Source: Pseudomonadota bacterium
GTDB lineage: Bacteria; Pseudomonadota; Alphaproteobacteria; Caulobacterales; Caulobacteraceae
Direction of reading: 5' to 3'
DNA: 37,955 nucleotides
NCBI GenBank assembly: GCA_018241335.1
Contig: JAFEEA010000014.1
Span: forward strand, 1-37,955
In this document: positions 19,701 to 37,955 of the stretch, piece after piece
How positions within the stretch are numbered: the first letter of the stretch is position 1
Layout: each line of letters opens with the position of its first letter
Notes under the pieces: model-generated
Seen by the model: the letters and a program-made list of their open reading frames with translations, nothing else
Told to the model about the DNA's origin: nothing
Database searches by the model: none
Translations under genes and position numbers: made by a program

Positions 19701-19741
19701 CGGCCCCCGCACGATCCTGTCAGCATCGGCGCGGGATGTTC

Positions 19742-19769
19742 TTGTAACGTTCCGCGCCGCCGCTAGGAT
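19742..19769 (+). promoter_or_regulatory. Candidate promoter of the second VOC gene
   Basis: TTGTAA at 19742-19747 and TAGGAT at 19764-19769 are 16 bp apart, each four of six matches to the housekeeping consensus. Initiation near 19776 would leave about 22 bases of leader with a GGAGG ribosome site, consistent with a VOC-kinase unit separate from icd. Confidence 0.4.
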
Positions 19770-23336: not shown

Positions 23337-25991
23337 CTACCCCGCCAGCGCGGCCTTCACCGCCGCCACGCCGTCGGGGGCCTTGGCGCCGTCCGGGGCG
23401 CCGCCCTGGGCGAAGTCGGGCTTGCCGCCGGCGCCCTGGCCGCCCATGGCCGTCACCGCCGCGCGCGCCAGGGTCGCGGCGTCGAAGCGGCCGACCAGGT
23501 CGGGCGTGATGGCGATGGCGATCGAGGCCTTGCCCTCGTTGACGGCGGCGTAGGCCACCACCCCGCCCTGGCCCAGGCGCTTGCGCGCCTCGTCCACCAG
23601 CGGGCGCATGTCCTTGGGACTGACGCCCTCGACCACGCGGCCGTCGAACTTCACCCCGCCGACGTCCTCCACCGTGGAGGCGCCGCCCGCGCCGCCGCCA
23701 CCGCCGAGGGCCAGTTGCTTGCGCGCCTCGGCCAGATCGCGCTCCAGCTTGCGGGCCTGGGCGGTCAGGGCGTCGACGCGGCCGGTCACCTCGGCCACCG
23801 GGACCTTGAACTGGTCGGCCAGCCCCTTGGCCACCGCCGCCTGGTCCAGCAGCCAGCGCCGCGCCGGTTCGCCGGTCAGGGCCTCGATGCGCCGAACGCC
23901 CGCCGCGATGCCTTGCTCCGAGACGATCTTGAAGAGGGCGATGTCGCCCGTGCGCGCCACGTGGGTGCCGCCGCACAGCTCCACCGAATAGGCGCCGTCG
24001 CCGGTCAGGGCCTTGCCCAGGGTCAGCACCCGCACGCTGTCGCCGTACTTCTCGCCGAACAGGGCCACCGCCCCGGCCTCGATGGCCGCCTGGGGCGCCA
24101 TCTCGCGGGTGTCGGCCGGCACGTTCTGGCGGATCACGGCGTTGACCTCGGCCTCGATGCGGTCCAGCTCGTCCGCCGTCAGCGGACCGCCGTGGCTGAA
24201 GTCGAAGCGCATGCGCTCGCCGTCCACCAGCTGGCCCTTCTGCGCCACGTGCGGGCCCAGCACGTGCTTCAGCGCCGCGTGCGCCAGGTGGGCTGCGGAA
24301 TGGTTCAGGCGCGTGCGGGCGCGCCGGTCGGCGTCCACCGCCAGGCGCACCCGCGTCCCCGGCTCCAGGCGGCCCTCGACGACCTTCAGCACATGGGCGA
24401 AGAGGTCCCCGGCTTCCTTCTGGACGTCCAGGACCTCGGCGCGGCCGCCGGTCCATTCCACCTCGCCGCGGTCGCCGGCCTGGCCGCCGCTCTCGGCATA
24501 GAAGGGGGTGCGGTCGAAGAGGGCCTGGACGGTCTCGCCCGCCCCCGCGCCGTCGACCTCGGCGCCGCCGGCGACGATGGCCAGGGTCTCGGCCGTGCCT
24601 TCCACGGAATCGTAGCCCGTGAACACCGTCGGCCCCAGGCGGTCGCGCAAGGCGAACCACACCGCCCCGTCGGCCTTCTGACCCGAGCCGGTCCAGTTCT
24701 CGCGGCCCATCTCACGCTGGCGCTCCATGGCGGCGTCAAAGCCGGCCAGGTCCACGGTCAGGCCCTTGGCGCGCACCGCGTCCTGGGTCAGGTCGATGGG
24801 GAAGCCATAGGTGTCGTAGAGCTTGAAGGCCGTCTCGCCGGACAGCACCTCGCCGGCGACGAGGCCCGCCGTAGCTTCGTCCAGAAGGGCCATGCCGCGG
24901 CCGAGGGTGCGCCGGAAGCGTTCTTCTTCCTGACGCAGGGTCTCGGTGATCACCGGCTCGGCGCGGCGCAGCTCCGGATAGGCCTCGCCCATCTCCGCCA
25001 CCAAGGTCGGGACCAGCCTATGCATCAGCGGGTCCTGCGCGCCCAGGATATGCGCGTGGCGCATGGCGCGGCGCATGATCCGGCGCAGCACATAGCCGCG
25101 GCCTTCGTTTGACGGCGTCACCCCGTCGGCGATCAGGAAACTGGTCGAGCGCAGGTGATCGGCGATGACCCGGTGCGAGGGGCCGTTCGACCCGCCGCCC
25201 GCTCCGCCGACCAGGGCCTTGGACGCCTCGATCAGGGTGCGGAAGAGGTCGATATCGTAGTTGTCGTGCACGCCCTGCATCACCGCGGTCAGGCGCTCGA
25301 TGCCCATGCCGGTGTCGATGGAGGGCTTGGGCAAGGCGACGCGGGTGTCGGCGTCGACCTGATTGTACTGCATGAAGACCAGGTTCCATATCTCCACGAA
25401 CCGGTCGCCGTCCTCATCGGGCGAACCGGGCGGGCCGCCAGCGATATGCGAGCCATGATCGAAGAAGATCTCCGAGCACGGGCCGCAGGGGCCCGTGTCG
25501 CCCATGGACCAGAAATTGTCCGACGAATTGATGCGGATGATCCGCTCGTCCGACAGGCCGGCGATCTTGCGCCACAGGCCCGCGGCCTCCTCGTCGGTGG
25601 CGTGCACCGTCACCAGCAGGCGCGAGGCGTCGAGGCCGTACTCCTTGGTGATCAGCTTCCAGGCCAGCTCGATGGCGCCGTCCTTGAAGTAGTCGCCGAA
25701 GGAGAAGTTCCCCAGCATCTCGAAGAAGGTGTGGTGGCGCGCCGTATAGCCGACGTTGTCGAGGTCGTTGTGCTTGCCGCCGGCGCGGACGCACTTCTGC
25801 GACGAGACGGCGCGCGGCCCGGGCGGCGTTTCCGCGCCCGTGAAGATATTCTTGAACGGCACCATGCCGGCGTTGACGAACAGCAGCGTCGGATCGTTCT
25901 GCGGCACCAGGGGAGCCGACTGCACCACCTGGTGGCCGTTCTGGCCGAAATAGCTCAGGAACTCTTTGCGGATGTCGTTTAGGCTCGGCAT
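23337..25991 (-). CDS. alaS: Alanyl-tRNA synthetase
   Basis: An 884-residue class II synthetase that charges tRNA-Ala and edits mischarged Ser and Gly. The N-terminal catalytic domain begins [21 protein letters not shown] and has [18 protein letters not shown] and the [14 protein letters not shown] region. The editing domain carries the metal-binding N-H-S-A-A-H near residue 563 and C-G-G-T-H near 672. The C-terminal DHHA1 domain is present. The length is normal. Its ribosome site is weak and a nine-bp hairpin lies 21 bases upstream of the ATG, within a 439-bp structured gap after recA. recA-alaS order is common in this group, and readthrough from recA is possible. Confidence 0.98.
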
Positions 25992-26011: not shown

Positions 26012-26034
26012 CGGCGCGGGCTCATCCCGCGCCG
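26012..26034 (-). promoter_or_regulatory. Nine-bp hairpin in the alaS leader
   Basis: CGGCGCGGG (26012-26020) and CCCGCGCCG (26026-26034) pair perfectly around a five-base loop, about 20 bases upstream of the alaS ATG. It could slow ribosome access or mark the end of an upstream transcript. No T-box-like sequence accompanies it, as expected outside Firmicutes. Confidence 0.45.
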
Positions 26035-26219
26035 GCTTTGGGAACCCCAAGGGGGACTGCGGCGGCGTCTAACATCTCCCCCTTCCGCCACAAAGCAAAA
26101 CGCGGCGCGGGAGCTGCCGGGCGGCCAGGGTGCGCGTGGTTCGGGGATGAATCCTTTGGTCGGCGCGGCGCACTCAGTCCTCCGCCCGCTTGGCGAGCGG
26201 CGACGCTCCGAAACGACGG

Positions 26220-26249
26220 CGGACGCCCGACCGGGGGATCGGGCGTCCG
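26220..26249 (-). terminator. 11-bp hairpin downstream of recA
   Basis: CGGACGCCCGA (26220-26230) and TCGGGCGTCCG (26239-26249) form a perfect 11-bp stem with an eight-base loop, about 180 bp past the recA stop. Read on the minus strand it is followed by CCGTCGTTT, a poor U-tail, so as a terminator it is incomplete; it may instead be a processing or stability element. Confidence 0.4.
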
Positions 26250-26253
26250 GTTC

Positions 26254-26332
26254 GCATGACGCGGCCGGGCGGGGCGGCCGAGGGCGGCGGGTTGGCGGGC
26301 GTCGCCCAGGGCCAATTCCGGCCGCGTCATGC
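26254..26332. repeat. 15-bp perfect inverted repeat with a nested stem
   Basis: GCATGACGCGGCCGG (26254-26268) is repeated exactly inverted at 26318-26332. Inside the 49-bp spacer TTGGC (26292-26296 region) pairs with GCCAA (26311-26315), with GGGC-gtc-GCCC nested within. The whole 79-bp unit can form a long stem with an inner hairpin as RNA, or a cruciform as DNA. Confidence 0.6.
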
Positions 26333-26430: not shown

Positions 26431-27504
<1,074 letters not shown>

Positions 27505-27610
27505 CCGCCAACCGCCCTTCTATCCCATGATTCCGCCGACCGGGCGGCGTTCCCGGCGCCCCGCGCCGATTCCCCTCGGCCGATGGCTATGCGTACCGGC
27601 TTTGTTCCAT

Positions 27611-27625
27611 GTTCGCAAGATGTTC
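27611..27625 (-). promoter_or_regulatory. SOS box (LexA site) of recA
   Basis: GTTC-gcaagat-GTTC at 27611-27625 is an exact match to the alphaproteobacterial LexA site GTTC-N7-GTTC (GAAC-N7-GAAC on the recA strand). A further GTTC lies at 27604-27607. TTGCGA (27618-27613), a possible -35 box, overlaps the site, so LexA would block the promoter. GANTC sites at 27529-27533, 27568-27572 and 27653-27657 surround it. Confidence 0.88.
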
Positions 27626-36836: not shown

Positions 36837-37955
36837 TCAGGCCGCGCTCTGCAGTTGCTGCTTCACGCGTTCGGCCAGGGTCTTGATGTCGATGGGCTTG
36901 GGCAGGAACGACACGCCCGGCTCGCCCTCCAGCAGGTCCGAGAACTCGGACTCCGCATAGCCCGAGATGAACATCACCGGGGCCGAGCCCAGGAAGCCGC
37001 GCGCCTTCTTCAGCAAGGTCGGCCCATCGATGCCCGGCATGATCACGTCCGAGATCATCAGGTCGATGGTCCCCGCGTTTTCCTCCGCCAGTTCCAGCGC
37101 CTCCTCGCCGTCACAGGCCTCGATGACTTCATAGCCGCGGGCGCGCAGCAGGCGGGCGGCGATGCCGCGCACGGCCTCCTCGTCCTCGACGAACAGGATG
37201 CGCCCCGAGCCGGCCATGTCACGCGCGGCCACCTTGGGCTTGGCCGCCAGCACCGGCGCCTCGGGCAGGATCGGGGGCACATAGACCGGCAGGAAGATGC
37301 GGAACGCGGCCCCGTGGCCCAGGGTGCTCTCCACCGAGATCCAGCCGTCGGACTGCTTGACGATGCCGTAGACCGTGGCCAGGCCTAGCCCCGTCCCCTC
37401 GCCCACCGCCTTGGTGGTGAAGAACGGCTCGAAGATGTTGCCGATCACCTCAGGCGGAATGCCGGGACCGTCGTCGGCCACCTCGATCATGGCCATCTCG
37501 CCCATCGGCGCGCCGGCGTAGCCCAGGGCCTGGGCCTCGCTCTCGCTGACCCGGGCGGTGCGCAGGCGCACGGCGCCGCCGCCGTTGGCGTGCACGGCGT
37601 CGCGGGCGTTGACCACCAGGTTCATCACCGCATTCTCGAGCTGGGCCTTGTCGGCCCGCACCAGCGGCAGGTTCAGGCCGTAGTCGGTCTCCAGCTTGAC
37701 GTCCTCGCGCAGCAGGCGGCGCAGCAGGACCTGGAAGTTCGAGACCAGTTCGCCGAGGTCCAGGGTCGTGCGCTGGACTGTGGCCTTGCGCGAGAAGGTC
37801 AGCAGCTGGCGCACCAGGTCGGCCGCCCGCACCGCCGTCTGGCGGATCTCGGACAGCCCCTCGTACGACGGGTCGCCCAGGGGGTGGCGCAGCAGCAGCT
37901 CGTCCAGGCGCAGCTGGATGGCGGTCAAGAGGTTGTTGAAGTCGTGGGCGACGCC
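36837..37955 (-). CDS. cckA: Cell-cycle hybrid histidine kinase CckA, 3' part
   Basis: The last 372 codons of a hybrid kinase; the N-terminal membrane and PAS region lies outside the window. The fragment opens exactly in the dimerisation box, [12 protein letters not shown], so the phospho-histidine is its fourth codon (37946-37944). The ATPase domain shows [22 protein letters not shown] and [15 protein letters not shown], and the C-terminal receiver [12 protein letters not shown] and [14 protein letters not shown] with the phospho-aspartate. This arrangement and the [11 protein letters not shown] box match CckA, which phosphorylates ChpT and so controls CtrA and CpdR in the Caulobacter cell cycle. 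An intrinsic terminator follows. Confidence 0.92.

Follow-up and report, generated by a model that had tools for sequence, protein, structure and literature searches.

A conserved stem-loop in the recA 3′ untranslated region of Caulobacteraceae and its complementarity to the recA 5′ untranslated region

Inverted repeats between recA and alaS

The 37,955-nt stretch of Caulobacteraceae DNA that we analyzed (hereafter, the window) carries recA (357 aa; 26431..27504; Pfam RecA, 1.1e-144, and RecA_C, 8e-25) and alaS (884 aa; 23337..25991; Pfam tRNA-synt_2c, 2.1e-213), separated by a gap of 439 bp between the recA end at 26431 and the alaS start at 25991. Since both genes lie on the minus strand, the relevant reading direction runs from high to low coordinates, and in that order a 79-nt stem-loop (26332-26254) starts 98 nt after the recA stop codon, a 13-bp hairpin (26249-26220) follows 4 nt later, and about 230 nt remain before alaS. 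The original prediction had described a perfect 15-bp repeat (26254-26268 with 26318-26332) enclosing a nested stem, together with a perfect 11-bp hairpin (26220-26230 with 26239-26249). The coordinates of both repeats were borne out, the nested stem is present in the predicted fold, and the 11-bp hairpin, when read on the minus strand, reaches 13 bp around a loop of 4 nt. A further "small stem" (26186-26200) amounts to no more than a 4-bp CCGC/GCGG pairing, and we gave it no weight. The assertion that the structure exceeds chance held up against shuffled sequences, with z-scores of -2.88 for a 181-nt fold of the plus strand, -4.55 for a 251-nt fold of the minus strand (0 of 200 shuffles were as good), and -4.94 for the 85 nt preceding the terminator on the recA strand.

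The stem-loop itself (26254..26332, minus strand) consists of a 15-bp outer stem, a nested inner stem, and a C-rich apical loop, CCCGCCAACC (26290..26299, minus strand), that is unpaired in the MFE fold and complementary to the recA 5′UTR. The same architecture is found at the same place in Caulobacteraceae, and searches of Rfam 15 at both gathering and loose thresholds returned no credible family match to the element. A promoter scan, whose consensus does not cover Caulobacter promoters, called none for a 3′UTR RNA. With one copy of the element in the window's genome, we could exclude the proposal that it is a dispersed palindromic repeat.

The 13-bp hairpin (26220..26249, minus strand) is homologous to the stem of the intrinsic terminator that follows recA, aligning by position and sequence with the GGACGC..GCGTCC terminators of relatives. 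Directly after it lies a degenerate U-tract, CCGTCGTTTCGG (26208..26219, minus strand), which aligns with TTTTCGTTTCGG of the relative L034 and falls below the scanner's threshold. The window therefore has the GC-rich stem of at least 8 bp expected of an intrinsic terminator, while the U-rich tail that directly follows this stem in most relatives is lacking in the window, where the tail is CCGTCGTTTCGG. A terminator scan of the window made no call at the recA 3′ end, where the U-tract is weak. In three other species (L049, L050, and L135), the ribosome-binding stretch AAGGACGCC(C), at about -15 in the recA 5′UTR, complements the 3′ arm of the terminator and the start of the U-tract over 9-10 nt, which could possibly represent a second mode of pairing.

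On the alaS side of the gap, downstream of the hairpins, we found a promoter-like element (CTTTGTGGCGG...GATGTTAGAC; 26067..26095, minus strand) that matches CTTTGTCGC...GATAGAG before alaS in sister species such as L016, L018, and L019. Because this conserved element sits between the hairpins and alaS, the hairpins would fall outside the predicted alaS transcript, and an alaS leader or attenuator, as had also been suggested, is unlikely. The presumed alaS 5′UTR has a perfect hairpin of its own, GGCGCGGG-ATGAG-CCCGCGCC (window 26013-26033).

We conclude that the inverted repeats are a single-copy, structured recA 3′UTR made up of a stem-loop and a terminator stem. A structured RNA at the recA 3′ end had been among the identities originally put forward, and that one was right, although the minus strand as the acting strand, the terminator identity of the second hairpin, and the match of the loop to the recA 5′UTR were missing from that description.

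Conservation and covariation of the stem-loop

In the regions downstream of recA in many Caulobacteraceae, a long GC-rich stem-loop is followed by a GGACGC...GCGTCC terminator with a U-tract. The stem sequences diverge strongly between lineages; the C-rich loop is nearly invariant within a genus. An alignment of 17 Brevundimonas-like and allied sequences contained 16 invariant columns, nearly all of them in the loop, and since these rows were chosen by the loop motif, it is the pairing of the stem, rather than the loop, that a covariation test on them probes. A check for covariation across relatives' recA-alaS gaps had been recommended at the outset, and the stems do covary: their score was 0.504 versus 0.215 +/- 0.035 for shuffled alignments (0/500), and sliding the helix gave no more than 0.155, with relatedness handled in this and the later covariation test by dereplication alone. 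An arm-swap test, which involved no choice by folding, gave a similar picture, with a species' own arms at rank 0.05 or below in 24 of 68 species (3.4 expected) and the window's own arms ranking first of 48.

When we ran a model of the element against 249 genomes of the order, its strong matches fell in genus g3, at the 3′ end of recA. Every strong match with recA in its locus was at that end, and one strong match (L206) fell in a locus where the part examined did not include recA. A covariance model built from the Brevundimonas-like set (R1) reached the terminator alone in the window, probably because the window's stem is longer, so that position, terminator, and loop motif are what support homology for the window's element. 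The stem-loop has been lost from most of the sister species in the window's own genus, and the element thus turns over. Among these, the recA-alaS gaps of L012-L020 have no stem-loop, and several hold other GC-rich palindromes (of the GGGGAGGGA type); the gap of L015, at 534 nt, looks as though it holds an inserted coding sequence.

Outside this family, the recA 3′ ends that we inspected by eye in Rhizobiales, Sphingomonadales, and other orders had ordinary terminators and no shared loop. A long GC-rich stem-loop whose interior is C-rich also comes after recA in Sphingopyxis (L149, L154, and L157), where it perhaps arose independently. One genome of genus g31 (G378; one contig, 99% complete) gave no recA match at E<=1e-150, perhaps because recA crosses the contig end.

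Matching sites in the recA 5′UTR

The apical loop of the window's stem-loop has a perfect 9-nt complement, GGTTGGCGG (27505..27513, minus strand), in the translation initiation region of its own transcript, directly abutting the recA ATG. Only 10 of 5000 dinucleotide shuffles of the 5′UTR contained a match as good. A second site, GGTCGGCGG (27533..27541, minus strand), precedes GGAATC with one mismatch to the loop and occupies the position at which Phenylobacterium-like relatives (a label that we inferred for genus g7) have a perfect site. The 9-mer CCGCCAACC from the loop was found in 7 of 62 orthologues, with 0.14 expected. Because automatic picking of the largest loop was unreliable, loops were also chosen by a blind C-rich-window rule; with a 22-nt loop window set in this way, the match in the window species alone was not significant (p 0.159), and support for pairing in the window therefore draws on its relatives. 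Its site is predicted to be mostly paired within the 5′UTR and lies at a different position from the sites of relatives, which are 30-65 nt upstream of the recA start.

In those relatives, perfect matches of 8-13 nt between site and loop occur in both the Phenylobacterium-like and the Brevundimonas-like genera. Phenylobacterium-like species have their site some 35 nt upstream of the start codon, with GGAATC immediately after it, and the site matches the loop over 8-13 nt; species of this genus without the loop motif are missing the site too. Site and loop change together in L023 (GCCGGGTTGGCGG with CCGCCAACCCGGC), L286 (CGGGGTTTGCGG with CCGCAAACCCCG), L025 (GTCGGGTTGGA with TCCAACCCGAC), and L299 (TGTCGGGTTGGA with TCCAACCCGACA). 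Taking the best register where several were possible, we found that 81.8% of alignment cells in the site-loop helix pair versus 74.7 +/- 1.5 when shuffled (0/500), and that the covariation score was 0.193 versus 0.086 +/- 0.020 (0/500). Some of the sequences used to test the pairing hypothesis had also served to form it; the Phenylobacterium-like set was collected after the hypothesis had been written down.

Across 79 dereplicated species, the mean longest match between a 3′UTR and its own 5′UTR was 7.96 versus 7.38 +/- 0.13 for permuted partners (p 0.0002), and the same permutations were negative for two controls, same-strand identity (p 0.19) and mid-CDS sequence (p 0.63). Site and loop also co-occur (CCAACC/GGTTGG; Fisher p 6.6e-8, uncorrected for relatedness). 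In the Brevundimonas-like genus, GACCCGCC faces GGCGGGTC at 50-65 nt upstream of the start, and no site-loop covariation is seen there because site and loop hardly vary. With the blind rule, the signal was weak in the Caulobacter genus (p 0.064 by match length and 0.013 by energy), and L019, a sister species of the window, has kept the 5′UTR site and is missing the loop. To judge from these comparisons, what is new here is a 3′UTR loop complementary to the recA 5′UTR of the same species, with compensatory changes, and the covariation suggests that site and loop pair in the cell.

We also examined the surroundings of the site. Folding of the 5′UTRs revealed no consistent direction of effect on the ribosome-binding region across clades. 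In the Brevundimonas-like L185-L203, a CTCTCCC stretch adjoining the site for the loop is able to pair with GGGAGA in the ribosome-binding region. Farther upstream of the window's recA, by about 110 bp, is a LexA (SOS) box, GAACN7GAAC (27611..27625, minus strand; GTTCN7GTTC on the plus strand), and most relatives have such a box upstream of recA too. Three GTTCN7GTTC boxes occur in the window, where 0.67 are expected; the other two LexA-box-like sites are at 19738-19752 and 37737-37751.

A damage-induced RNA from the same place and candidate roles

Frohlich et al. (2018; PMC6237742) describe CCNA_R0132, a stable 116-nt RNA from the Caulobacter crescentus recA 3′UTR that is induced specifically by mitomycin C (up 4.1-fold), lacks its own promoter, and was set aside by its discoverers as a possible decay intermediate. 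The main text of that paper gives no structure, conservation, target, or function for CCNA_R0132, and our literature search found no paper besides PMC6237742 that names it. The window's element lies directly downstream of recA, on the same strand and before alaS, and consists of a long stem-loop, C-rich in its loop, and then the recA terminator stem. It therefore resembles CCNA_R0132 in its place (recA-alaS, same strand), its size class, and its long C-rich-loop stem plus terminator, a comparison made by position and size, in which the structure of CCNA_R0132 is taken from Caulobacter-genus loci, where stem start to terminator spans 110-118 nt. On these grounds, the window's element is a likely positional and structural counterpart of CCNA_R0132, and the window organism presumably produces a similar RNA. 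The earlier suggestion of a small RNA gene was thus close, in that an RNA has been reported from the same place, but that RNA has no promoter of its own.

The mechanism that we propose is modeled on OppZ and CarZ of Vibrio cholerae, 3′UTR-derived sRNAs that are experimentally proven to repress their own transcripts (PMC7398697). The recA 3′UTR would likewise be an RNA complementary to its own transcript with a terminator at its end, although here the gene is recA, the sequence predicted to pair sits in the loop of a long stem, and release by RNase E cleavage, use of Hfq, and repression are putative. In the icaR mRNA of Staphylococcus aureus, a C-rich 3′UTR motif pairs with the mRNA's own G-rich ribosome-binding region. 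This is again a C-rich 3′UTR motif facing its own 5′ region, although in a Gram-positive bacterium, and we know of no comparable conserved stem-loop presentation and no link to DNA damage for icaR.

We consider it probable that an SOS-induced recA 3′UTR RNA, the counterpart of CCNA_R0132, base-pairs with the leader of its own mRNA and most likely represses translation. The recA 3′UTR, either intact or as a fragment released upon SOS induction, would pair with the recA 5′UTR, in trans by the released fragment or within the same mRNA. Given that the window's target abuts the start codon, the paired loop would cover the start region and block translation initiation, and less RecA would be synthesized, so that RecA would be under negative feedback in the course of the SOS response.

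Alternatively, the RNA may act in trans as an sRNA and use its C-rich loop chiefly to regulate other, G-rich mRNAs, with the recA match being secondary, a possible but rather unlikely account. The loop is better conserved than the stems, and the 9-mer that it targets, GGTTGGCGG, is a common sequence, present 187 times in the genome. GsrN, an sRNA of Caulobacter, has a C-rich loop that is its best-conserved part and acts through it on G-rich leaders (PMC5869019). GsrN thus shares with our element a conserved C-rich loop and the bacterial family, but it is a separate gene not located at recA, and it is under general stress control, acting on katG (PMC5869019). A mainly trans-acting role is at odds with the site-loop covariation inside recA itself, and near-full complements of the 18-nt loop were no commoner than a reversed-pattern control in 12 Brevundimonas-like genomes.

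Somewhat more doubtful is a role purely in cis, with the stem-loop and terminator serving to end the recA mRNA and to protect it, and any pairing with the 5′UTR circularizing it for stability or translation, without repression. Such a role would fit the terminator homology, the position of the paired site in some clades (30-65 nt upstream of the start and away from the ribosome-binding site), and the discoverers' warning that the stable fragment could represent an intermediate of decay (PMC6237742). However, a protective stem needs neither a near-invariant loop nor a covarying 5′UTR partner.

Pairing could also activate recA by opening a 5′UTR structure that hides the ribosome-binding site, as the CTCTCCC adjoining the Brevundimonas-like site might suggest, but we regard this as quite improbable. 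Forcing the window's site to be unpaired in silico freed the ribosome-binding region, although the bound loop would then cover it. Moreover, the 9 nt targeted in the window lie immediately before the ATG, where occupancy would block the ribosome, and occupying the site changed predicted accessibility little in most other species. Finally, that the element is a stray, functionless palindrome in a GC-rich gap is very improbable: sister species do without it and long stems are common at high GC, but the covariation already disfavors this reading, as do the z-scores, the arm-swap test, the loop conservation, and the RNA published from the orthologous place (PMC6237742).

Returning to repression by the recA 3′UTR, we lean towards the broader view that the conserved 3′UTR loop and the co-evolving recA 5′UTR site form an RNA feedback circuit in the central SOS gene, operating via a damage-induced fragment across the Caulobacteraceae. 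What is known of RecA control concerns mainly LexA and protein activity. If our reading is correct, the SOS response would have a post-transcriptional layer located inside the recA mRNA itself, a model bacterium's orphan RNA, induced by damage, would gain a function, and the recA transcript would provide a clear case of co-evolution between the 5′UTR and 3′UTR of a bacterial mRNA.
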